DNA of 23,894 nt from a virus. This document shows positions 281 through 14,958 of the stretch, in pieces; within the stretch, counting starts at the first letter, position 1; each line of letters begins with the position of its first letter. The notes under the pieces are model-generated. The model searched no databases. It saw only the letters and a list, made by a program, of their open reading frames with translations, and was not told the DNA's origin. The stretch lies in the IMG/VR virus record IMGVR_UViG_3300049595_004863, positions 1-23,894 of that record; one strand, given 5' to 3'. The position numbers and the translations under genes were made by a program.

Positions 281-308
281 ACCCCCCCTTGTGGGGGTTT
301 TTTGTTTT
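281..308 (+). terminator. Rho-independent terminator after the repeat protein
   Basis: A C-run (CCCCC, 284-288), a TTGT loop and GGGGG (293-297) form a short strong stem followed by TTTTTTGTTTT. It lies 30 nt after the stop at 251 and before the glycosyltransferase cluster. Confidence 0.75.
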
Positions 309-363
309 AAAAAATATTCAGTTTATTAACCTTATGATTATTTTTTTTGTAAAAATTAAATTA

Positions 364-1611
364 ATGAAAATATTTGTTCAAATAGCCTCTTACAGAGACC
401 CCCAACTCATCAAAACACTTAAAGATATGATTGGGAATGCAAAGAGACCAAAAAATCTAAGAATTGCGATTGCAAGACAATATCACCCTGAGGATAAGTT
501 TGATGATTTGAATGAATATGAAAACGATAAGCGTTTTCGTATTTTGAATATTCCACATGAGGATTCTAAAGGAGTTTGTTGGGCTAGAAACTTAACTCAA
601 CAACTCTATGATGGTGAGGAGTATACACTACAGATTGACTCTCATATGAGATTTGCCCCCAATTGGGACGATGAAATGATTAAAATGGTTAAACAGCTAC
701 AAAAGAAAGGACATAAGAAGCCTTTGTTGACGGGATATGTTTCATCGTTTGACCCTGACAACGACCCAGCGGGTAGAGTTAAAGAACCATGGAGAATGGT
801 GTTTGATAGATTTATCCCTGAAGGTGCGGTTTTCTTTTTACCTGAAACAATTCCCGGTTGGAAAAATTTGAAAGAACCTGTAACTGCACGATTCTATTCC
901 GCACACTATGCGTTTACTCTTGGACAATTCTCAACAGAGGTTCAACACAATCCCGAATATTATTTCCACGGTGAGGAGATTTCGATTGCCGCTAGAGCAT
1001 ATACCTGGGGCTATGATTTGTTTCACCCACATAAGGTTCTTATCTGGCACGAGTACACACGTAAGGGTAGAACCAAGCAATGGGATGATGACAAACAGTG
1101 GGTTGATAAAAACAACAAATCCCACCTTAATAACAGAAAACTATTCGGTATGGACGGTGAAACTCAAGAAGGTCACGACGGCCCATTTGGTTTTGGTACT
1201 GAGAGAACGTTACAAGAATATGAAAAGTATGCCGGTATTTTATTTGAAAAACGTGCAGTTCAACAATACACATTAGATAAAAATTATCCTCCCAATCCAT
1301 ACACTTATTCAAATGAGGAAGAATGGAAAAAAGATTTTGCTCAAGTTTTCAAACATTGTATTGATGTGGGTTATGCAAGTGTTCCCGAAAAAGATTATAA
1401 TTTCTGGGTTGTGGCTTTCCATGGTTCAGATGATTCAACTTTATTTAGAAAAGATGCTGACAAGGCCGAAATATCTCGAATGATGAATGACCCCGACAAA
1501 TATTGTAAAATATGGAGAGAGTTTCAAACAACCCAGAAACCCGCGTACTGGGTAGTTTGGCCTCACTCAGAATCTAAAGGTTGGTGCGACCGACTCACAG
1601 GTAATTTATAA
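364..1611 (+). CDS. GT60-like glycosyltransferase (GlcNAc-transferase family)
   Basis: The 415-residue protein begins MKIFVQIASYRD and fits the GlcNAc glycosyltransferase family (Pfam PF11397, CAZy GT60), whose known members attach GlcNAc to hydroxyproline of Skp1. Visible hallmarks are the SYRD start (9-12), VCWARN (71-76), the metal/sugar-nucleotide motif LQIDSH (89-94; DxH type), and FHGEEISIAARAYTWGYD (201-218) followed by WHEYTR (228-233). About 115 C-terminal residues lie beyond the catalytic core and I do not recognise them. The frame is open further upstream, but that part overlaps the terminator and reads as low-complexity hydrophobic sequence, so the ATG at 364 is the better start. 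No Shine-Dalgarno is present; the leader is AAATTAAATTA. It heads a run of five glycosyltransferase genes with gaps or overlaps of only a few bases, so co-transcription is likely. Family assignment is fairly sure; donor and acceptor are unknown. Confidence 0.8.
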   Translation: MKIFVQIASYRDPQLIKTLKDMIGNAKRPKNLRIAIARQYHPEDKFDDLNEYENDKRFRILNIPHEDSKGVCWARNLTQQLYDGEEYTLQIDSHMRFAPNWDDEMIKMVKQLQKKGHKKPLLTGYVSSFDPDNDPAGRVKEPWRMVFDRFIPEGAVFFLPETIPGWKNLKEPVTARFYSAHYAFTLGQFSTEVQHNPEYYFHGEEISIAARAYTWGYDLFHPHKVLIWHEYTRKGRTKQWDDDKQWVDKNNKSHLNNRKLFGMDGETQEGHDGPFGFGTERTLQEYEKYAGILFEKRAVQQYTLDKNYPPNPYTYSNEEEWKKDFAQVFKHCIDVGYASVPEKDYNFWVVAFHGSDDSTLFRKDADKAEISRMMNDPDKYCKIWREFQTTQKPAYWVVWPHSESKGWCDRLTGNL

Positions 1612-1616
1612 AACTC

Positions 1617-2351
1617 ATGGTTACCTGGAATAACATCAAAGTTGCTGATAAGGGTTTTTTAATTAATCTTAAAGAAAGAGAAGATAGATTAAATCAATCT
1701 ATTTTCGAACTTGATAAGAACAACATTGTTGGTGTTGAAAGATTTGATGCTATCAAAATTACTGAAAACAGTGATGAAGGTTGGATTATACGAGGATGTA
1801 CCCACAGCCACATGGACATTTTGAAATTGCAAGTCGAGAACCAATGGAACAAAGTGGTAATTTTTGAAGATGATTTTTATTTGGATGTGTGTGACAATCA
1901 AAATCGTGAATTGGATAATAATATGATTGAAAACATTTATCACACAGATTTTGATATTTTATTTTTAGGGGCCTGCTTACTAGAGCCTGTAGAATATTTT
2001 ACTGAAAATTTAATAAAACCAAATAAATTTGTTCAAACAACAACTTATATTACTTCGTTAAAGTTTGCTGAATATGTTGTTAAAAATTTTAACTACTTAG
2101 ATAAAGAACTTGTTGTTTATGGTGAACAAATCGATAGCTACTATAGTGTTCTTGCAGTTAAAGACCACTGGTTGATGGATAATAGAACAAAGGGTGTTCA
2201 AGAAATTAAGAACCACGATTTAAAAATTTATTTTCACTACCCACTTTTTTTTAATCAAAGACCTTCATATTCGAACATCTTGAATAGGGATACCAATTAT
2301 TCTGCGACGAACAAATTCAGAAACTTAAAAAATTTTCCCCAAACAAATTAA
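1617..2351 (+). CDS. GT25-family glycosyltransferase (first of two)
   Basis: This 244-residue protein matches the GT25 / LPS glycosyltransferase family (PF01755). It has the N-terminal INLKEREDR (16-24), a GCTHSHMDIL block (60-69), and the acidic VIFEDDF motif (81-87) expected to bind the metal and nucleotide sugar. Known GT25 enzymes add galactose or other hexoses to LPS, or to hydroxylysine of collagen in eukaryotes. It starts 5 nt after the GT60-like gene ends and 7 nt before the next gene. No signal peptide or membrane segment is visible, so it should act in the cytoplasm. The substrate cannot be read from the sequence. Confidence 0.78.
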   Translation: MVTWNNIKVADKGFLINLKEREDRLNQSIFELDKNNIVGVERFDAIKITENSDEGWIIRGCTHSHMDILKLQVENQWNKVVIFEDDFYLDVCDNQNRELDNNMIENIYHTDFDILFLGACLLEPVEYFTENLIKPNKFVQTTTYITSLKFAEYVVKNFNYLDKELVVYGEQIDSYYSVLAVKDHWLMDNRTKGVQEIKNHDLKIYFHYPLFFNQRPSYSNILNRDTNYSATNKFRNLKNFPQTN

Positions 2352-2358
2352 AATTAAT

Positions 2359-3102
2359 ATGAAATTAAAAAACATTCCTAAGTTTGTAGTTAACCTAAAA
2401 AGAAGGCCTGATAGATTAGAAAGATTCAAAAAACAAATGGAGTATTTGGGTTGGGAATATGAAGTTTTTGAGGCTATCGATACAAATTCGTACATGGGTA
2501 TTACTAAATCTCAACTAGCAATAATTGAAATTGCAAAAGAACGAGGTTATGATAAAGTAATGATTATGGAGGATGATTGCGAAATTATGCCGTATGCCGA
2601 AAATTTTATTGAAAAATTAGATTCCGAAATCGAACATGTTGATTATGCGATTTTGAATTTGTCTCCCACATTAAATAGACATATTAATCGTGCTACAGGT
2701 TTTAACTATTTGTTAGATATGACAAATCTTCCAGAAAAACAAAACCCAGTTCACAGAGACATTTATGCCGCAAACATGATTATTTACGACAAGTCTATTT
2801 ATGATGAAATGTTCAAAATTTCAGAAGTTGCTTTTCAAAGTGGAGATTATTATTATGCTTTGGACGATTTTACGTTTCAATTTATAGTTCAAAAATTTCA
2901 AAGCTATTGTCCCACGGTTCCGATAGCAACACAAGGGAATGATTGGTCAGACATTTCTCAAGGAAATTATAACAACTTCTACCTTCAAACCTACAATTGG
3001 AATTTGTTCAGCCCGGTAAAAATTCCTGGACATTTTTGTAACGCAGAAATTAATAAACAAAAAAGAAATGAAATTATAAAAGAAACTATAAATGTCAATT
3101 AA
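2359..3102 (+). CDS. GT25-family glycosyltransferase (second of two)
   Basis: A second GT25-type enzyme of 247 residues: VVNLKRRPDRLERF at 10-23, and the acidic VMIMEDD motif at 67-73. Compared with its upstream neighbour it is similar in size and layout (INLKEREDR against VNLKRRPDR, IFEDDF against IMEDDC), so the two look like old duplicates or paired family members. It differs in lacking the GC.HSH block: the equivalent position reads ITKSQLAIIEIAKE. The gene's 3' end overlaps the start of the following gene by 11 nt, which suggests coupled translation. Substrate unknown. Confidence 0.75.
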   Translation: MKLKNIPKFVVNLKRRPDRLERFKKQMEYLGWEYEVFEAIDTNSYMGITKSQLAIIEIAKERGYDKVMIMEDDCEIMPYAENFIEKLDSEIEHVDYAILNLSPTLNRHINRATGFNYLLDMTNLPEKQNPVHRDIYAANMIIYDKSIYDEMFKISEVAFQSGDYYYALDDFTFQFIVQKFQSYCPTVPIATQGNDWSDISQGNYNNFYLQTYNWNLFSPVKIPGHFCNAEINKQKRNEIIKETINVN

Positions 3103-3973
3103 AATTATAACTTGTATCTATAGCGATTTAGCAGGTACTGAATACGGAGGACGACCCGCAAGAGGTGGTCATTACAGATGGAGTTTACTTTCGCTTTTGA
3201 AAATGACCGATGCTGATTTTTTGTGTTACACTTCTGAAAGAGAATATGAATCTTTGAAAAAATTTTTTTATGAAACAAATAACATCAGCCCTAACAAACT
3301 TAAGTTTAAAATTTTCGATATTTCAAATACAAAGTTTGCGGACAAAATTAATGAAGTTAAAGTTATCGATGATGTTAAACGTGGTGATAGGTGTGTTGAA
3401 ATTCAATATTCAAAATTTCATTGGTGGTGGAATGAAGATAAATCTTATGATTATTACTATTGGTTTGATGCTGGCTTATCTCACACGGGTTTAATCCCTA
3501 ACAAATATTTAAACACCACACATCCAGAGCGTAGATATTATGAATCCACATTATTTAATAATGAATTTTTAAAAAATGTTATTGAAGACACAGGTGATAA
3601 ATTTTTAATTTTAGCTAAGGAAAATCAAAAATATTATTGGTCCGGCACTGTGAATCGTAGTTGGTATAATGAATTTGATGCTTCATACCATGTTATTGGC
3701 GGGTTGTTTGGAGGACATAAATCTAAGTGGGATGCTATCGTAAAAACTTTCGAGGATTATTTAGAAAAAATAATTACTCAAGATAAAGGTTTACCTCATG
3801 AAGAAAATATAATGTCATTGATGAAGGTTAATCATCCACATCTTTTTGAAGTTAAAGATTTTGATATTTGGTGGTGTCCGGATTCTGGTCCTAGAGATTT
3901 GGATGCTTCGTATTATACCGATAAAAAAAGTTTTTATAGAATTTTAGAAGAATTTAATAGAATTTATGAATAA
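3092..3973 (+). CDS. HtrL/YibB-like putative glycosyltransferase
   Basis: 293 residues. Although not an obvious textbook family, several blocks line up with the N-terminal half of the next protein and with the HtrL/YibB group (PF09612), which is linked to LPS synthesis: YYYWFDAGLSHTG (121-133) against LFWIDAGITNT, then GGLFGGHKSKWD against GGIFGGAKDV, then HEENIMSLMKVNHPHLFE against EESLFSILLYRHPDLFD. The WFDAG aspartate (126) sits where a DxD-type metal ligand would be. The N-terminus has an unusual GTEYGGRPARGGHYRW stretch. It overlaps the previous gene by 11 nt and the following one by 8 nt. The family link is by eye; enzyme activity is an inference. Confidence 0.6.
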   Translation: MSIKIITCIYSDLAGTEYGGRPARGGHYRWSLLSLLKMTDADFLCYTSEREYESLKKFFYETNNISPNKLKFKIFDISNTKFADKINEVKVIDDVKRGDRCVEIQYSKFHWWWNEDKSYDYYYWFDAGLSHTGLIPNKYLNTTHPERRYYESTLFNNEFLKNVIEDTGDKFLILAKENQKYYWSGTVNRSWYNEFDASYHVIGGLFGGHKSKWDAIVKTFEDYLEKIITQDKGLPHEENIMSLMKVNHPHLFEVKDFDIWWCPDSGPRDLDASYYTDKKSFYRILEEFNRIYE

Positions 3974-5636
3974 AGTTACATTTGTTACCGGATTATGGAA
4001 TATAAAACGAGATGAACTCTCCGAAAATTGGTCTCGTTCGTTTCAGCACTACCTTGATAAATTAGAACAACTTCTGAGTATTGATGCTAATTTAATAATT
4101 TTTGGTGAACAAGAACTAGAAAGTTTTGTTTGGCAAAAACGTAAAAAAGAAAATACACAGTTTATACTTCGAAGTCAGGAATGGTTTAGAAACGATTTCT
4201 TTGCTAAGATTCAAAAAATTAGAACATCTCCTGAGTGGTATAATCAATCTGGTTGGTTACCGGATTCTACACAGGCAAAGTTAGAAATGTATAATCCTCT
4301 TGTTATGTCAAAAATGTTTTTGCTTAACGATGCAAGAATTTTTGACCAGTTTGATTCTTCACATTTATTTTGGATTGATGCTGGTATTACAAATACTGTA
4401 CACCCTGGATATTTTACTCACGATAAAATACATCTTAAATTTGACAAATTATTTAACAAATTTGGTTTTGTAGCTTTTCCTTATGCTGCTGAAAGAGAAA
4501 TACATGGTTTTTCTTATCCAAAAATCAACAACTACGCAACTAATAATGTCAAATTAGTTTGTAGGGGTGGTATCTTTGGGGGTGCAAAAGATGTTATTAG
4601 TGATGTAAACGGCCTATATTATAACGTAATGCACCAGACCTTGTCAGACGGGTTGATGGGGACTGAAGAGTCTTTATTTAGTATTCTTTTATACAGACAT
4701 CCGGACTTATTTGATTACTATGAAATTGAAGGTAATGGTCTGATAGGTAAGTTTTGCGAGGATGTCAAAAACGACAATCACAAAATAAAAAATACACAAG
4801 GTAAAGTTGCATATTCTGATTTGAATATTGATAACTCAGCATTATATGTAATTACTTTTAATAGCCCCAATCAGTTTGAAACTCTCATTAAATCAATGGA
4901 AATGTATGATAGAAACTTTTTGGACAAACCAAAGAAGTTTTTGTTGAATAATTCATCCGATTTATCAACTACAGAACGATATAAAGAGTTGTGTGATAAG
5001 TTTGGTTTCGAACACATTAAAAAGGATAACTTAGGAATTTGTGGTGGAAGACAATGGATTGCCGAGCATTCTCAGGAAAACAATTTTGATTTCTACTGGT
5101 TTTTTGAAGATGATATGTTTTTTTATAGCGGTCTTGACAAAACTTGTAAAAATGGTTTTGTAAGAAAAATTCCAGACCTCTACAACAAATCAATTCAAAT
5201 TGCTAAAAAAGAATCTTTGGATTTTATAAAACTTAATTTTACCGAGTTTTATGGTGACAATGGTACTCAATGGTCTTGGTATAATGTCCCACAAAGTGTA
5301 CGAGAGGAATATTGGCCGGAAAAATCAACTCTTCCAGTACAAGGGTTAGACCCAAATGCTCCAAGGACCAAATTTAATGAGGTTCGTTCTTACAAAGGTC
5401 TAGCTTACGGAATTGGTGAAGTTTATTATTGCAACTGGCCTCAAGTTGTTTCAAGATATGGAAATGAAAAAATGTTCTTGACAACTAAATGGGACCGTCC
5501 GTTTGAGCAAACTTGGATGAGTTACATTTATCAAGAAACCAAAAAAGAAAATCTTAAACCCGCTTTATTGTTTGCGACACCAACAGAGCATGATAGATTC
5601 GAATTCTACGATGGAAAGTTAAGAAAAGAGTCGTAA
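3966..5636 (+). CDS. Two-domain glycosyltransferase: HtrL/YibB-like plus GT-A-like domain
   Basis: 556 residues. Residues 1 to about 265 resemble HtrL/YibB (PF09612): TFVTGLWNI near the start, YNPLVMSKMFLLNDA (109-123), FWIDAGITNT (135-144), GGIFGGAKD (201-209). Residues from about 290 to 556 look like a second, GT-A-type domain: a strand SALYVITFNSP, then LGICGGRQWIAEH, then the acidic motif FEDDMFF (380-386, EDD at 381-383). The mature protein is therefore about twice the size of a single-domain HtrL protein. The start ATG lies 8 nt inside the previous gene. It is the last of the glycosyltransferase run; the next gene has its own late-type motif. A two-domain enzyme could add two sugars in sequence, but this is inferred from architecture only. 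Confidence 0.65.
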   Translation: MNKVTFVTGLWNIKRDELSENWSRSFQHYLDKLEQLLSIDANLIIFGEQELESFVWQKRKKENTQFILRSQEWFRNDFFAKIQKIRTSPEWYNQSGWLPDSTQAKLEMYNPLVMSKMFLLNDARIFDQFDSSHLFWIDAGITNTVHPGYFTHDKIHLKFDKLFNKFGFVAFPYAAEREIHGFSYPKINNYATNNVKLVCRGGIFGGAKDVISDVNGLYYNVMHQTLSDGLMGTEESLFSILLYRHPDLFDYYEIEGNGLIGKFCEDVKNDNHKIKNTQGKVAYSDLNIDNSALYVITFNSPNQFETLIKSMEMYDRNFLDKPKKFLLNNSSDLSTTERYKELCDKFGFEHIKKDNLGICGGRQWIAEHSQENNFDFYWFFEDDMFFYSGLDKTCKNGFVRKIPDLYNKSIQIAKKESLDFIKLNFTEFYGDNGTQWSWYNVPQSVREEYWPEKSTLPVQGLDPNAPRTKFNEVRSYKGLAYGIGEVYYCNWPQVVSRYGNEKMFLTTKWDRPFEQTWMSYIYQETKKENLKPALLFATPTEHDRFEFYDGKLRKES

Positions 5637-5654
5637 CAAAGTATTTATCTTTGT
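5636..5654 (+). promoter_or_regulatory. TATTTAT motif inside a 6-bp inverted repeat
   Basis: TATTTAT at 5642-5648 is flanked exactly by ACAAAG (5636-5641) and CTTTGT (5649-5654), and the ATG of the structural gene follows at once at 5655. It may be the late promoter element or an RNA hairpin exposing the start codon. Confidence 0.45.
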
Positions 5655-8958: not shown

Positions 8959-9223
8959 TCTGAGCCTTGACAACCCAGGAGCAGACTTTTGGATTGTTCG
9001 TCGTGGTAATGCCAACCAAGTTGGTCGACCTACTCGTGAATACTCTCCCGAGCACATTGGAGTAAGCGTAACTCGTCCAGATTTGGTTCTGGCAGATTAT
9101 CTTTACTACTTATTCGAGTTTATGGCGAGCAATGGGGTATTTGCTCAATTAGCTCAAGGAACTACTGGTCTGAAAAGTATTAGTGTAAAGGATTTAAAGA
9201 ATATTCCTCTTAGGACATCTTAA
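8936..9223 (+). CDS. HsdS-like specificity (target recognition) fragment
   Basis: 95 residues from an ATG that lies 23 nt inside the polymerase gene. An earlier in-frame ATG at 8843 exists, but its extra residues just translate polymerase sequence out of frame. The protein resembles one half of a type I restriction specificity subunit (HsdS, PF01420): DFWIVRRGNANQVGRPT, then the YLYYLFEF helix, then the ending GTTGLKSISVKDLKNIPL, which is the standard close of an HsdS target-recognition domain (G..GLK.IS..DLK.IP). A full HsdS has two such domains of about 150-200 residues each and partners with HsdM, which is not seen here. Possible roles: a decoy subunit, a partner of a host methylase, or a fold reused for another DNA-binding task. 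It ends in a 14-nt convergent overlap with the minus-strand gene. Confidence 0.55.
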   Translation: MKLKHIVNLSLDNPGADFWIVRRGNANQVGRPTREYSPEHIGVSVTRPDLVLADYLYYLFEFMASNGVFAQLAQGTTGLKSISVKDLKNIPLRTS

Positions 9224-9237
9224 GTCCGTCAGAGGAA
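9204..9237. terminator. Hairpin spanning two convergent stop codons
   Basis: TTCCTCT (9204-9210) pairs with AGAGGAA (9231-9237), and GGAC (9213-9216) with GTCC (9224-9227), around a 7-nt loop ATCTTAA. The stop codons of the plus-strand (9221-9223) and minus-strand (9210-9212) genes both lie in it. It lacks a clear U-tract on either side, so termination is a guess; blocking read-through between convergent genes is the likely job. Confidence 0.4.
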
Positions 9238-9545
9238 ATAATATACCAAACTCCTGCGCAGAATCTAAATTCTACGCAAGCCCCTTTATCAATTAAAAGT
9301 TCGTCATATTCCTCATCGATTCTACCAACATCAGGAATTATTAGGACTTTTGTCATCGCCTTTATAACTGTGTGGTCGGTTGAGATACTGTCTAGACGGA
9401 CTTTTGAATGTTCCACACCCCTTATTACGATACATGCTTCACCGTGCGTTTCGTAAAAAGGTTCCGAAACCACTGCAGTTTCTGAGGTGTTAATTAATTT
9501 ACCGTGAATAACCCTTTGTGAGGGTGCATTTTTAATTACAGCCAT
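9210..9545 (-). CDS. Small beta-rich putative virion protein
   Basis: 111 residues, not recognised as a named family. It is strand-rich with no catalytic motif. The C-terminal pattern GACVEFRFCAGVWYIISSDG resembles the repeated 'G-hydrophobic strand-WxIISS' end common in phage fiber, neck-whisker and capsid-decoration proteins. It starts one base after the stop of the gp13-like gene on the same strand, so it is almost surely co-transcribed with it. Function as a neck or head accessory is inferred from this position. Confidence 0.5.
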   Translation of the reverse strand: MAVIKNAPSQRVIHGKLINTSETAVVSEPFYETHGEACIVIRGVEHSKVRLDSISTDHTVIKAMTKVLIIPDVGRIDEEYDELLIDKGACVEFRFCAGVWYIISSDGLKMS

Positions 9546-9546
9546 T

Positions 9547-10665
9547 CTATATTACATAAATTTGTCTGGGCATAGCTCTATACTTCATTTGCTTGTTCAA
9601 ATTTTCAGCAAGCAGCGCTTCTTTTTCCATTTGTTTTTCTGGACGAAGTCTTTCGAGACGAAGTTTAAGCTCCTCTTCCAATTTAACCTTCTCATCTTTT
9701 GATTCAGTTTGTAAGGACTGGTAGTCCATTTGTAGTTCAGAATCAGGAGTTTTAAGGTTACCAGAGAACTTACCCCTTACTCTTGCTAAAGTTTCTTTAG
9801 CATAAGCGGTAAACCATTTTCTAACCCATTGTTGGGCTGGAACGTTTAAATCCTCCCAACTAAGTTCTTCAATGGGTACGTCAGATGGTAGTTTAATTAT
9901 ATCTGGATTATCTTTTAAACATTTTGCTCTACTATCACCGTCAACATCGTAATACCAATACCAAACAGCTTTACCTGTGTAGGAGGAATAATTACTGAAC
10001 GAAAAGTTAGAGCCTGGTGCATTGTATAATGTTACTAATCTTTTTCCATCGGGAAGCCCAGTAATTTTATAGGTCAAGGCACCCCCCAATATTCTGTTAA
10101 GGATATTGGCTTCTTGGAATCGAAGTAAATAATCGAATCCACTTAACATAAAATATGAACCAGCATTTCCTATTTGAGCATATCCTGCTTGGTTCGCCCC
10201 CAATCCCAAACCACCAAATCCATAATCAGTTGTACCAAAAAGGGCTAAATTTTGAAATGGTTGGTTAGAAAACCATAATAGTTCGTTGATTTCACGTCCA
10301 GCTGGAATTTCGTATGATTGTGTATTGGCACTTAAAACAAAATAATCTTTCTTCAAAACATAAGGGCCTGTTGTTTGCAAACCAACTATCTTCGAATAAG
10401 CGTATGTGAACTGGTCCTCCAAATTAAATGTTCTTGTTGTAAGAGCTCTTGCAACAGATTTTTCACTCATGTTCAAGTTAACCAAGTTAACCCAATTTGA
10501 CTCGATAAGCCAATCTAGTGTATATTGTTCGTAATCTTGGATGGATAACTCCATCAAGGAATCGAGCATATCGTCCTCCAATTCTACGGCTCTCAAGGGC
10601 GCACCTAATTGGTGACGTAGTCTAGTATAAATTCTACTTCTTTCGGGTTCTGGTAATACTGCCAT
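9547..10665 (-). CDS. Neck protein, T4 gp13-like
   Basis: 372 residues. The N-terminal LRHQLGAPLRAVELEDDMLDS, SIQDYEQYTLDWLIESNW, then FTYAYSKIVGLQTTGPYVLKKDYF and the IPAGREINELLWF block follow the layout I associate with neck (gp13-type) proteins of marine T4-like phages, which close the head after packaging and join it to the tail. A central Gly/Ala/Phe-rich loop (YGFGGLGLGANQAG) and a long charged C-terminal helix (KDEKVKLEEELKLRLERLRP) are visible. It has its own TATTTAT copy 4 nt upstream of the ATG, between the preceding gene and its start. The gp14/gp15-like genes lie some 4 kb away on the other strand, unlike T4. The gp13 name is based on recall of the family pattern, not an alignment. 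Confidence 0.55.
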   Translation of the reverse strand: MAVLPEPERSRIYTRLRHQLGAPLRAVELEDDMLDSLMELSIQDYEQYTLDWLIESNWVNLVNLNMSEKSVARALTTRTFNLEDQFTYAYSKIVGLQTTGPYVLKKDYFVLSANTQSYEIPAGREINELLWFSNQPFQNLALFGTTDYGFGGLGLGANQAGYAQIGNAGSYFMLSGFDYLLRFQEANILNRILGGALTYKITGLPDGKRLVTLYNAPGSNFSFSNYSSYTGKAVWYWYYDVDGDSRAKCLKDNPDIIKLPSDVPIEELSWEDLNVPAQQWVRKWFTAYAKETLARVRGKFSGNLKTPDSELQMDYQSLQTESKDEKVKLEEELKLRLERLRPEKQMEKEALLAENLNKQMKYRAMPRQIYVI

Positions 10666-10682: not shown

Positions 10683-12209
10683 TTATCTCAAATCGTAAAT
10701 CAATGATTTTTTATCGAAAACATAATTACCCAAAACTATTTCACCGTTATTTTCAAAAACAGCAACTTGCTTTCCTCTAACAAAAACCATCAAATCGACA
10801 TTATATTTTGCTACTTCTCCAGTTTTAGTTACAACGAACTTGTTGTTTTGTTCAATTATTTCAGCATAACCTTTAATTTGTGCCGTTTTCTTTTTTCCTT
10901 CAATAACCAAATGGGCATCAATCTTTTTTTCAGCATCAATACTTTTACCTGCACCTGAAGTGTTAATAACTTTAACATTTGGTAAACCTTCGGTTAAAGT
11001 TTTTAGTGCTGACTTTTCTCTGTTAGAACCAACTTTCTTTTTTTCTGCCAAAATTTTTATTAAAGTTTGAAAAACATTTTCTTTCACATCAAAAATTGGT
11101 TTAGCAAATTTCTCAATTAAGTTTGCAAATCTTTTCATTTCCACAACTTGTTCTCCGGGGCTTTTCTCAGTAAAGTTTATTAATGCCTGACCTTCATCAG
11201 ATTCCAAACGCTGATTGATATCACGCATTATGAAACACAAAGCCGAGTAACTTGTATTCAAAAAATTAATATCACTTCGTCCAGGTTTTTCTAAATAATA
11301 TACTCCAGGTATTTCACCATTTTCTTTTTTATTGTGATACTTGTCTTTAAAAACTTTTTCAAGTACTGAATTGATAGTATTTTTGTAAAGATTTCTTGCT
11401 TGAGTGTTCACGTTAAATAACGTTCTGAAAAATTCTACTTCGGCTCTACTACAGTATTCAATCTTTGTTTCTTTCAAAAGAGCCCCCATTTCTTTGGATT
11501 CTAAGAGTTTTGTTTCTGTTTTTAGTTGATACATTTTCTGAACAAATTCCCAGTTTACAACAGTCCAAAAGTTTTTGATGTACTCGTCTCTTTTGTTTTT
11601 GTATTTGAGGTAATAAGCGTGTTCCCATAAATCCAATCCGAGAATCGGGTATCCCCCCCCTTCGATGATGTTCATAAGTGGATTGTCTTGGTTGGGGGTG
11701 GACATAATTTTAAGTGTCCCTTTGTTTGTTAAAACGAGCCATACCCATCCGGAACCAAATCTTTGACGAGCCACGTCTTCAAAACTTTTTTTGAACTTTT
11801 CATAAGAACCAAAATCTTTTTTAATTTTAATGATGAGCTCTTTGCTTGGTCTTTGTTGGGTGGGGGAAAGCATGTTCCAGAATAGTGCATGGTTGAATGC
11901 TCCACCAGCGTTGTCCCTAACCCCTTTTGGGTAGCGTGAGATGTTTTTAATTATTTTTTCTAAGTCGTGGTCGCCTTTTCTTTTTTTAAGCATGGCGTTG
12001 AGCTTATCCACATAACCTTTGTAGTGTTTGTTGTAGTGAACATTCATAGTTTCTGAATCTATGAATCTCTTTACGGCTGAGTAACTGTAAGGGAGTTTTT
12101 CTATTCCTATGTTTTTTCCTTCCTGGAGAAGCTCTCTTACTTGTTCTTTTTTCTGTTCGTGGATTATTTGCTCTTGTATTTTATTAACTTGCTCTTGTAA
12201 ATGTTGCAT
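10683..12209 (-). CDS. Mn-type superoxide dismutase fused to a PD-(D/E)XK-like C-terminal region
   Basis: 508 residues in three parts. Residues 1-45 are Gln/Glu/Lys-rich and probably coiled coil. Residues 46-228 are a complete Fe/Mn superoxide dismutase: metal ligands H58 (NVHYNKHY), H107 (FNHALFW), D193 and H197 (LDLWEHAYY). The AGGAFNH block and NQDNP (173-177) favour the manganese type over the iron type. Residues 229-508 are not a known SOD extension; the end contains KKIDAHLVIEGKKKTAQIKG (D431, Q444, K446), which has the spacing of a D-x13-QxK nuclease core of the PD-(D/E)XK fold. Typical SODs have about 200 residues. It lies between the SNF2 gene and the neck gene and has its own TATTTAT motif, so it is probably made late and perhaps carried in the virion. 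The SOD assignment is firm; the nuclease part is tentative. Confidence 0.85.
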   Translation of the reverse strand: MQHLQEQVNKIQEQIIHEQKKEQVRELLQEGKNIGIEKLPYSYSAVKRFIDSETMNVHYNKHYKGYVDKLNAMLKKRKGDHDLEKIIKNISRYPKGVRDNAGGAFNHALFWNMLSPTQQRPSKELIIKIKKDFGSYEKFKKSFEDVARQRFGSGWVWLVLTNKGTLKIMSTPNQDNPLMNIIEGGGYPILGLDLWEHAYYLKYKNKRDEYIKNFWTVVNWEFVQKMYQLKTETKLLESKEMGALLKETKIEYCSRAEVEFFRTLFNVNTQARNLYKNTINSVLEKVFKDKYHNKKENGEIPGVYYLEKPGRSDINFLNTSYSALCFIMRDINQRLESDEGQALINFTEKSPGEQVVEMKRFANLIEKFAKPIFDVKENVFQTLIKILAEKKKVGSNREKSALKTLTEGLPNVKVINTSGAGKSIDAEKKIDAHLVIEGKKKTAQIKGYAEIIEQNNKFVVTKTGEVAKYNVDLMVFVRGKQVAVFENNGEIVLGNYVFDKKSLIYDLR

Positions 12210-12225: not shown

Positions 12226-12233
12226 TATAAATA
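12226..12233 (-). promoter_or_regulatory. TATTTATA late-type motif before the SOD-fusion gene
   Basis: On the minus strand the motif sits 17 nt before the ATG within CTAT-TATTT-ATAG, a short inverted repeat. Read from the plus strand it is TATAAATA, the exact T4 late element, but in the wrong direction for any nearby gene. Confidence 0.45.
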
Positions 12234-12248
12234 ATAGAAACCGACCGA

Positions 12249-14009
12249 TTATTTTTTCCGATTAATACTGTTTAAAATTTCTTCTACAATATTTGTTTCG
12301 TCTTGGGCTCCATCGCCCATAACGGTGGCTATAATTCTTTTTTTAATGTTTAATATGTCGTATATGATACCTTCAATTGTGTTGTCAAAAATGGGGTAAT
12401 AAACAAGGACGTTATTCTTTTGCCCATACCTGTATGCGCGGTCTTCAGCTTGGCTGTGGTCCGAAGGAAGAAATGATAGGTCATTCATAATAACAGCTTC
12501 TGCTGCGGTTAATGTAATTCCAGTTCCAGCTGATTTAATATTACCAACAAACACTTTAACCTTTTCATCTTCTTGGAATTTGTCCACAGCTTCTTGTCTA
12601 AGTGCTTTACTAGTTGACCCATCCAAACGAACCGCTGCCTTGCCAAAATGGTTGTAGATGGTCTCCAAAGAGTTCGTAAAATTGCAAAAAATAATTACCT
12701 TCTTTCCTTGTTCAATAATATTTTCAGCAAGTTCGATTGTGTGCTGAGTTTTTTCATCAGCAATTAACTGACGGACTTGTACGAGTTTGGAAAATTGTAT
12801 TGACAGGTTTTTACTTTCTTCAGGGTTTTTTTCATACCAATTGTAGTATTCCCCCATTAGTTCCTCGTAGTTTTTTGAGCGAAGTCTAAGGTATACTGGG
12901 GTAATGATTTTCTCTGGTAAATCCAACACATCTTCTTTTAATCTTCGAAGAATAGTTGCACCCGTTCTATCTCTTAATTCCTCCAAGTTGGAAGCACCCA
13001 TTACGTTCCAAACTTTTCTTGGACCAACCCTAAATTGGTAACCCGCACAATATCTGATTACATATGCCATCCAATTTTTGGCAACTGGAGAATCAACCAA
13101 CGACAAAAGGTTGAAGTAATTAATTGGACGAGATGTCATTGGAGTTCCTGTCAATAACCAAAGTCTTTCAATGTTTTTAACCAAATCATTGATAAGCTTT
13201 GTCCGCTGTGCTTGAACGTTTTGAATATAGTGTGCCTCGTCGATTATTACCAAATCAAATTTTGATTTGAACATTAATGAATTCTTGGGGTCTTTAGAAT
13301 CGTGAAAATTTTTGATGATATCATAGTTTATTATAACAATCTCAGCATCTTCAGAATAATTTTTTCCCTCACAAACATAACTTGTCTTATCGCTGTATAG
13401 TTGGTATTCCCTTTGCCAGTTGATTTTTAGAGTAGCTGGACAAATAATCAAAATCTTTTTTGCACCTGTTTCTAGCGATGCAATAATGGTCGATGTTGTC
13501 TTGCCCAAGCCCATATCATCAGCAAGAATATATTTTTTGTTTTTCAACAATTCTTCAATGGCAGTCTTTTGGTGGTCAAGAGGGGGGCGATGTGAATATT
13601 TTGAATAATCAACCTCGGCAATCTCAACTTTGTTGTCCTTAATAATTGCTGCTTTTGGAATCCACAAGTCCGAAAATTCATCGTTTTCAAAGAATTTCCC
13701 CCAAATGTGGTAAGCTTTATCTTTCTCAGCTAAAAGCTTTTCAATCCACATCTTTTCTGGGATATTCATCAAAAATCTTTCATCAGCGATTTTGTTGGCA
13801 AAGTAAGTGTCAAGAACCACCCACTTCTTGGCTACCATAGGAACCTTATCGTGGTTTAATAAAATGTATTCGGCCTGACTTCTTGTTGGATAAAACTTTG
13901 AATTTTTATCTAGCTTTGCTTTCAGAGTCAAAAGATAATTGTTAGCTCCTTCGTAATTGTCCAATACCGAAAGTGCTTTTGATTCAATGGGTAATTCAGT
14001 ACTCATCAT
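12249..14009 (-). CDS. SNF2-family DNA helicase/translocase
   Basis: 586 residues with all main SF2/SNF2 motifs: I DDMGLGKTT (164-172), Ia ICPATLKINW, II IIDEAH (255-260), III LLTGTP (285-290), V GTGITLTAAEAVIMND, and VI QAEDRAYRYGQ (520-530). The closely spaced motifs and GTGITLTAA place it near the SMARCAL1/annealing-helicase branch rather than large chromatin remodelers, but this subfamily call is by eye. The first 140 residues are unlike these families. Likely role: ATP-driven movement on DNA for fork remodeling, recombination or removal of bound proteins, comparable in role to T4 UvsW. The start ATG overlaps the stop of the SET gene (ATGA), so the two are translated together from the SET promoter. 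Confidence 0.9.
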   Translation of the reverse strand: MMSTELPIESKALSVLDNYEGANNYLLTLKAKLDKNSKFYPTRSQAEYILLNHDKVPMVAKKWVVLDTYFANKIADERFLMNIPEKMWIEKLLAEKDKAYHIWGKFFENDEFSDLWIPKAAIIKDNKVEIAEVDYSKYSHRPPLDHQKTAIEELLKNKKYILADDMGLGKTTSTIIASLETGAKKILIICPATLKINWQREYQLYSDKTSYVCEGKNYSEDAEIVIINYDIIKNFHDSKDPKNSLMFKSKFDLVIIDEAHYIQNVQAQRTKLINDLVKNIERLWLLTGTPMTSRPINYFNLLSLVDSPVAKNWMAYVIRYCAGYQFRVGPRKVWNVMGASNLEELRDRTGATILRRLKEDVLDLPEKIITPVYLRLRSKNYEELMGEYYNWYEKNPEESKNLSIQFSKLVQVRQLIADEKTQHTIELAENIIEQGKKVIIFCNFTNSLETIYNHFGKAAVRLDGSTSKALRQEAVDKFQEDEKVKVFVGNIKSAGTGITLTAAEAVIMNDLSFLPSDHSQAEDRAYRYGQKNNVLVYYPIFDNTIEGIIYDILNIKKRIIATVMGDGAQDETNIVEEILNSINRKK

Positions 14010-14392
14010 TTAACATGAACATATTCTCTTGAGCTCCAATATTCATTACCACCATAATAAACAAAAATTTCTTCACCTTTTTTTATGTTCCTAGTTGAAA
14101 TAAAATCTATTGAATTATTTTTTACATTGTTTGTAAAATTACAATTTGGTTGGTCGGAGTGATTGTAAAGTGAACCATAACCTAAGGCAATCACATAACT
14201 ATTGAAGTTATTTTCGTCCTTCCACCAATATCTATAATCACCAAGCATTGGATTTTGTTCCTCAATAGGTAATTTTAGAATCGGTGCTATTTCAATTAAT
14301 TCCCATTGTTTTATATCTTCTGCCGCAAAAACTCCCAATCCATGAATTGGGCTTTTTTGCACAAAAACTTTAAGGGGTTTATTTTCAGACAT
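14006..14392 (-). CDS. SET-domain protein methyltransferase
   Basis: 128 residues forming a minimal SET domain: GLGVFA (18-23) in the N-terminal part, the signature NHSDQPNC (77-84), and GEEIFVYYG (106-114) with the catalytic tyrosine region. There are no pre-SET or post-SET zinc-binding cysteines. SET enzymes transfer a methyl group from S-adenosylmethionine to lysine in proteins; small free-standing viral examples exist (chlorovirus vSET). The substrate here is unknown: a host DNA-binding protein, a ribosomal protein or a phage protein could all be targets. It is the first gene of an operon with the SNF2 helicase and is preceded by a Bacteroidota-like promoter, so early expression is likely. 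Confidence 0.85.
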   Translation of the reverse strand: MSENKPLKVFVQKSPIHGLGVFAAEDIKQWELIEIAPILKLPIEEQNPMLGDYRYWWKDENNFNSYVIALGYGSLYNHSDQPNCNFTNNVKNNSIDFISTRNIKKGEEIFVYYGGNEYWSSREYVHVK

Positions 14393-14401
14393 ATTTTAAA
14401 A

Positions 14402-14432
14402 CAAATATATTATTAATAGTGGTATTTATCAA
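14402..14432 (-). promoter_or_regulatory. Bacteroidota-type promoter for SET-SNF2 operon
   Basis: On the minus strand TATATTTG (14409-14402) matches the Bacteroidota primary-sigma -7 element TAnnTTTG. TTG (14432-14430) lies 20 nt upstream, as expected for the -33 element. The SET start codon is 9 nt downstream. Confidence 0.6.
14423..14429 (+). promoter_or_regulatory. TATTTAT late-type motif before the gp14-like gene
   Basis: TATTTAT lies 13 nt before the ATG at 14443 and next to the -33 TTG of the opposite-strand promoter, so the two directions share sequence. Confidence 0.45.
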
Positions 14433-14442
14433 TATATTAGTT

Positions 14443-14958
14443 ATGACAAATAAATTAGTACCAATTACTCGGCTAGGTAAGTTCTTCGGTGGTGAAGATT
14501 ATTCTTTAGATATTTCTATGGGACAAGAATGGCTCGAGGGGGATATGAATTTTACTGTTGTATTATATCGTATTGACAGATACAAAACTAGAATTGATGA
14601 TGTTTATGGAGAATCTCCGGAACAAGGTATACAATTCCTTGCACCTGTAGAACTTAAAGGTTATGTTCAAATTTTGGGACCTACTGCTCAAAGACTTGGT
14701 GATTCTAGAATTGAACAAAATGAACCTGGCAATATGAGGTTCTCTGTATATCAAGCATACCTTGAGGAATTGGGTGTTGAAATTGCTTATGGTGACTATT
14801 TGGGTTATTACGAGTCAGAGGATAAAGTAAGGTACTATACGGTTGCTGATGATGGTCGTGTTGTTTCAGACAATAAACACACTTATGGTGGGTACAAACC
14901 GTTCTATAGAACAATTATTGCTGTTCCTACTTCACAAAATGAATTCTTTGGAACCTAA
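14443..14958 (+). CDS. Structural protein, possibly gp14-like neck protein
   Basis: 171 residues. I start it at the ATG at 14443, after the TATTTAT motif, rather than at an in-frame GTG that would overlap the motif. The protein is strand-rich (FFGGEDYSLDISMGQEWLEG; PVELKGYVQIL) and ends YGGYKPFYRTIIAVPTSQNEFFG. The YGDYLGYYESEDKVRYYTV stretch followed by 'Y-x-PFYR' resembles the part of T4 gp14 in which a strand block is followed by DPFYQLGQ, but the match is weak. Better support is position: it directly precedes a gp15-like gene (TAATG overlap), as gene 14 does in T4. A head-completion or connector role is therefore probable; identity as gp14 is not proven. Confidence 0.5.
   Translation: MTNKLVPITRLGKFFGGEDYSLDISMGQEWLEGDMNFTVVLYRIDRYKTRIDDVYGESPEQGIQFLAPVELKGYVQILGPTAQRLGDSRIEQNEPGNMRFSVYQAYLEELGVEIAYGDYLGYYESEDKVRYYTVADDGRVVSDNKHTYGGYKPFYRTIIAVPTSQNEFFGT

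Follow-up and report, generated by a model that had tools for sequence, protein, structure and literature searches.

The SET-domain gene examined here, compared with more than 100 relatives, is probably an accessory gene that shares the promoter of the neighbouring SNF2-family helicase gene and stands beside an independent core helicase, rather than one half of a chromatin-like machine. This level of confidence covers the explanation as a whole, that is, an accessory, early vSET-like methyltransferase together with an independent helicase. The DNA analysed, called the window, comes from an uncultured phage with a contractile tail, probably one that infects Bacteroidota bacteria, and constitutes an IMG/VR record of 23,894 bases. 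It encodes a sheath, a tail tube, a baseplate hub, a family-B DNA polymerase and glycosyltransferases. Five genes at 289-5636 on the plus strand form a glycosyltransferase-like cluster (a GlcNAc transferase of PHROG 24687, two GT25 proteins and HtrL/YibB), possibly concerned with virion or surface glycans. The features around the two genes are the following.

9210-9545, minus strand: 111-aa protein without a family, the final ORF of the minus-strand run
9547-10665, minus strand: head-tail adaptor-like structural protein (PHROG 211), with its own late-type motif at 10676-10670
10683-12209, minus strand: Fe/Mn superoxide dismutase (SOD; residues ~37-229; Pfam Sod_Fe_C, 1.4e-40) fused to a C-terminal alpha/beta domain
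12249-14009, minus strand: SNF2-family (superfamily 2) DNA helicase of 586 aa, with Pfam and PHROG matches
14006-14009, minus strand: ATGA overlap of 4 nt, formed by the SET stop TGA (14006-14008) and the SNF2 start ATG (14007-14009)
14006-14392, minus strand: SET-domain protein of 128 aa, a vSET-like putative protein-lysine methyltransferase with a Pfam SET match
14402-14432, minus strand: host-type promoter (Bacteroidota sigma-ABfr-like), with TTG at 14432-14430, N20 and TATATTTG at 14409-14402
14423-14430, plus strand: late-type motif TATTTATC of the P14 gene; base 14430 is common to the -33 TTG
14443-14958, plus strand: P14, a 171-aa protein divergent from SET and without a family match, used as a synteny marker of the lineage

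The methyltransferase and the helicase

The SET ORF matches PF00856 as a complete domain (E=2.2e-16; 60.6 bits against a cut-off of 22.4; profile positions 1-105 of 105). The protein consists of this single domain, with no pre- or post-SET region. Profile searches gave PBCV-1 vSET, fission-yeast Set7 and Plasmodium PFL0690c as its closest solved relatives (PDB entries 1n3j, 5h6z and 4rz0), and the best matches were to 5h6z (E=3.6e-25) and 4rz0 (5.8e-20). The AlphaFold model of the protein (pLDDT 85.6) has the SET beta fold, and its top PDB match in Foldseek was vSET (3kma; E=1.6e-9; target-normalised TM 0.82). The roles of Tyr105, the catalytic residue, and of Asn69 and His70 in vSET belong to the general knowledge of the SET family; these residues align with Y113, N77 and H78 of the phage protein, and all three are kept. 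In an alignment of 28 phage homologs, with identity down to 31%, the invariant positions are S14, G20, F22, G71, Y76, N77, H78, F97, I103, E108 and Y113. The loss of catalytic residues in close homologs, a prospect raised in the preliminary description of this DNA, is thus contradicted by N77, H78 and Y113, which are retained throughout. Since the domain is complete and its catalytic and SAM-site motifs are invariant, the SET protein looks like an intact, catalytically competent enzyme, and its predicted reaction would be SAM-dependent methyl transfer to lysine.

The helicase ORF matches SNF2-rel_dom (E=1.4e-26), Helicase_C (5e-18) and, over residues 116-577, PHROG 62 “DNA helicase” (E=3e-111). 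Its translation contains the Walker A sequence GLGKTTS and the DEAH motif of an SNF2 helicase/translocase. Both genes lie at the coordinates first given for them, on the minus strand, and both family assignments were right. The SNF2 gene is also kept in contigs of the same group that have no SET gene or carry it elsewhere. It is best read as an independent core helicase of the phage lineage and as a regular member of the phage SNF2/DNA helicases of PHROG 62, with a predicted function; the process it serves is most likely the processing of replication forks or recombination intermediates. Many phages carry SNF2 helicases, with 1,923 matching records; no isolated phage matched the SNF2 of the window above 60% identity. 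Membership in the defence systems Zorya, DISARM and Dpd was rejected: the matches were confined to the helicase core and fell far below the NCBIfam cut-offs, and none of the partner genes of these systems was seen. In one related locus (L093:6384-9248), the SNF2 ORF is 954 aa long and carries an in-frame LAGLIDADG-like intein within Walker A (GLGK^C...HN^TTST). The gene is interrupted in the same way in L094 and L095.

Promoters and the overlapping junction

The intergenic region between P14 and SET measures 50 nt and contains two interlocked promoter elements. The consensus of Bacteroidota sigma-ABfr promoters is TAnnTTTG at -7 and TTTG at -33 (PMC7366714). The TTG-N20-TATATTTG arrangement in the window fits it, but the -33 element reads ATTG and not TTTG. 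TTG-N18-21-TATATT or a one-base variant was conserved in 74 of 90 relatives, with a spacing of 20 in 67 of the 74, while the plain promoter pattern occurred in 1.2% of shuffled intergenic control regions. The final base of TATATTTG is frequently A, T or C in the relatives, not G. The host-type early promoter of the preliminary description is therefore real as a conserved element (74/90), and the word “early” derives from its promoter-motif class.

Two classes of motif could be distinguished. Of the 20 genes of the window, 8 have TATTTAT no more than 60 nt upstream, where 0.38 would be expected; the motif lies at 5642, 14423, 16265, 20532, 22022 and 23784 on the plus strand and at 12233 and 10676 on the minus strand, mostly before structural genes. 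In three longer relatives, it precedes 31-39 genes per genome (2.3-3.5 expected), including those for portal, protease, sheath and tube. It is a candidate late promoter class of this phage group. The TTG-N19-21-TAnn class is rarer: in the three longer relatives it is found before 4-8 genes, with ~1 expected (5-10 fold enrichment), and these genes encode a gp32-like SSB, DNA polymerase, a ClpB-like ATPase, DnaJ and a Dam-type methylase. It would represent an early or middle class.

The host-type pattern occurs in front of 55 of the 64 helicase loci that have SET and 19 of the 26 that do not. Because it is also present in genomes without SET, this promoter belongs to the helicase gene and is used by SET as well. 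Most simply, SET has its place between this promoter and the helicase gene, a position that would also explain the tight junction between the two genes. The ATGA overlap reported earlier is present, and in a hand count of 51 SET-containing loci, which includes near-duplicates, the genes overlap (ATGA or TAATG) in 36 and abut in 6 more. The idea of an operon stands as far as the overlap and the promoter are concerned. It requires correction further downstream, where the run of minus-strand genes extends past SNF2 into the SOD fusion and the head-tail adaptor, each of which has its own late-type motif (12233-12227 for the SOD fusion).

The proposed arrangement places SET next to the promoter, ahead of the helicase gene. 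SET would be transcribed early or in the middle of infection, probably alongside replication genes, a timing that rests on the promoter-motif classes. The junction of 0-4 nt would keep the downstream helicase gene translated. SET and SNF2 would then be co-expressed, which does not require that they act on the same target.

Pairing and gene history across relatives

A scan with the helicase retrieved 80 loci at 73-100% identity, most of them with SET directly upstream, and a scan with a SET profile enlarged the set further. Among 90 non-redundant helicase loci, SET lies in front of the helicase in 64 and is absent from 26; these frequencies are biased, as some of the 90 loci came from searches with SET itself. 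The presence and absence of SET require 6 changes on the helicase tree, where well-supported branches make 4 of the changes necessary and gain and loss of SET are indistinguishable. The gap between P14 and SNF2 is 45-94 nt in most genomes without SET, and the site is otherwise similar. SET is absent along the whole length of three contigs of 114-142 kb (G003-G005). In three others (G012, G013 and G017), SET and SNF2 are kilobases apart on the same contig, and SET is near the polymerase or inside a cluster of sugar genes. Other genes are found at or near the same spot beside P14, namely HNH-endonuclease-like genes, small ORFs of unknown type and hydrolase-like genes (L156:4953-5627, L113:3491-3823, L047:5603-6043 and L118:4454-5406), and for this reason it resembles a hot spot for insertions.

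Two further SET scans yielded phage SETs of other groups. Every pair of the third scan, with SET no more than 200 nt from an SNF2 ORF, belonged to a locus with the lineage markers P14/P15/sheath. Neither the 80 loci of a second phage SET family nor the 79 cellular SET loci had such an ORF nearby. As far as the search extended, the pairing of SET with SNF2 is a property of one lineage. It is found in most close relatives of the window (64/90) and in none of the loci searched outside the lineage, so the conserved neighbourhood that the preliminary description looks for holds for the former and not for the latter.

These observations bear on the joint action that the preliminary description suggested. 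In that reading, nucleoid or replication proteins of the host would be methylated by SET and stripped or remodelled by the helicase. A further version would have the helicase itself controlled through methylation by SET. The overlapping genes behind a single conserved host-type promoter, the occurrence of both side by side in 64 of the 90 non-redundant loci and a residual correlation of SET and SNF2 distances (0.22) are what such a system could leave behind. Nevertheless, 26 relatives have the helicase but no SET, mostly with the same promoter in front of it, SET stands away from the helicase on three contigs, and no helicase of this type was found near the loci of the second family or the cellular SETs. 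SET distances follow those of the helicase loosely, and the lysines of the helicase and six neighbouring proteins show at most a weak association with the presence of SET. Joint action is improbable on this evidence, and a conserved functional pair is not what the relatives show. Some functional link between SET and SNF2 may exist, because their order is frequent (64/90) and the partial correlation of 0.22 persists.

The correlation figures are as follows. The distances of SET and SNF2 have a Spearman coefficient of 0.28 and those of SNF2 and P14 one of 0.64; controlling for P14 leaves 0.22 for SET and SNF2, and the SET distances are partly saturated. Very different SETs are found on near-identical backbones (L062/L082 and L122/L141), at least partly because tandem copies existed and one or the other was retained. 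Tandem SET genes lie ahead of SNF2 in L082, L120 and L141. In L082 and L141, one of the copies comes from a shorter branch, and its C-terminal YGxxYW motif is altered.

The repeated presence and absence of SET and its loose congruence with the backbone are also what would be seen if it were passive cargo without an important function. The dN/dS ratio of SET in close pairs is about 0.03-0.1 (for example, 0.030/0.76 and 0.056/1.79), and SET is therefore kept by purifying selection, which is strong. The corresponding dN is 3-5 times lower for SNF2, P14 or the adaptor. Positive selection on SET was rejected in view of the low ratios. The active-site residues are invariant in homologs down to 31% identity, and SET is retained across distant phages, including one with a 735-kb genome, and in tandem duplications. 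Passive cargo is thus a very remote explanation.

In the SET tree, which is unrooted and based on few columns, all phage SETs of the window type form one group apart from cellular SETs, with 98% SH-aLRT. The second phage SET family (L341-L420) is divergent, ~104 aa long and apparently of marine origin. Genes for peroxiredoxin-like and glycosyltransferase-like proteins and for an epimerase, together with GTP cyclohydrolase-like genes, are among its recurrent neighbours.

Possible substrates, known relatives and neighbouring genes

The SET protein would be a single-domain, vSET-like protein-lysine methyltransferase of an accessory, host-takeover type. A host protein is its tentative first choice as a substrate, slightly favoured because of the promoter class of SET. 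A phage replication or virion protein is conceivable at a slightly lower level of confidence. The strongest competing candidate is a virion protein, as SETs outside the lineage often adjoin fibre, sheath or glycosyltransferase genes. The neighbouring helicase itself would be a quite improbable target. When the helicase was considered as the substrate, the lysine columns that track SET were few, weak and scattered, and SNF2 was no richer in them than the sheath, the polymerase or SOD. The neighbours of bacterial SET genes gave no broadly conserved neighbourhood that could serve as a clue to the substrate.

The specific reading that SET modifies a virion or adhesin protein of the phage (tail fibre, sheath or neck), and that it is located near structural genes on account of such a role, is rather unlikely. 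SETs outside the lineage adjoin large fibre-like ORFs (L155, L270, L271 and L275), lie near sheath-like genes (L275, L311, L312 and L330) or stand in sugar/glycosyltransferase clusters (L107, L109, L143 and L151), and the SET of the window itself is flanked by P14/P15/sheath on one side and the head-tail adaptor on the other. However, the SET promoter in the lineage of the window is of the host/early class whereas the structural genes carry TATTTAT, and accessory genes of all kinds lie among structural genes in such phages.

The closest known counterpart of the phage SET, read as an accessory methyltransferase, is vSET (A612L), the histone H3K27 methyltransferase of chlorovirus PBCV-1. It is likewise virus-encoded and consists of a single SET domain of ~120 aa, and its DY(50), NH(69-70) and catalytic Y(105) are aligned and kept in the phage protein. 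The two differ in that identity is ~30%, Tyr16 of vSET is not conserved (position 19 varies), and the host of the phage is bacterial, without nucleosomes. vSET methylates a DNA-packaging protein of its host, which is linked to the shut-off of host transcription (PMC3089700, PMC7019647), and is packaged in virions (PMC7019647). Set7 and PFL0690c, the small SET proteins with the best PDB profile matches, are eukaryotic enzymes with other surroundings and partners. Short SETs of Bacteroidota, Bacillota, Daviesbacteria and Methanosarcina have 36-48% identity and a similar length and motifs, but fall outside the phage SET group (98% SH-aLRT) and have no SNF2 nearby. Annotated phage-borne SETs of Stenotrophomonas phage Moby and of an uncultured Caudovirales phage (A0A6J5L8Y2) are 37-38% identical; unlike in the window, no annotated SNF2 adjoins the SET gene of Moby.

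SET genes in phages are thus already known as annotations, just as SNF2 helicases are known to be common there. New are the scale of the survey, the evidence for selection together with intact motifs, and the demonstration that the SET-SNF2 pair is optional. In the open-access literature, which leaves out most subscription journals, no paper on the role of phage SET proteins and nothing on SET with SNF2 in phage genomes was found. It is possible, though doubtful at this stage, that tailed phages possess a widespread family of early-expressed, vSET-like lysine methyltransferases with which they modify proteins of the bacterium, or their own, during infection, and that one lineage among them uses the promoter of a core helicase. 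If this is true, the SET family of tailed phages would parallel, in bacteria, the strategy that chloroviruses pursue with vSET. With the collected loci (hundreds of candidate matches per scan), the targets of phage lysine methylation become a testable question. The promoter result, in addition, corrects an inference that is often made: a gene translationally coupled to the next may be a guest behind the promoter of another gene and not a functional partner.

The SOD fusion downstream of the helicase has a C-terminal region of ~280 aa, whose last ~130 residues are modelled as an alpha/beta domain (overall pLDDT 77.7; C-terminal blocks mostly ~88-96). Pfam gave no match for this domain, and none of the isolated phages in the collection spans the whole fusion. 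D425, D431, Q444 and K446 are invariant in the alignment, and the C-terminus resembles a putative nuclease of the D...QxK type (Mrr-like PD-(D/E)xK). A stand-alone homolog of the C-terminal region, 290 aa long, is encoded in the 735-kb genome of an uncultured phage (LR756501; L088:7023-7895), where it divergently adjoins the SET gene.
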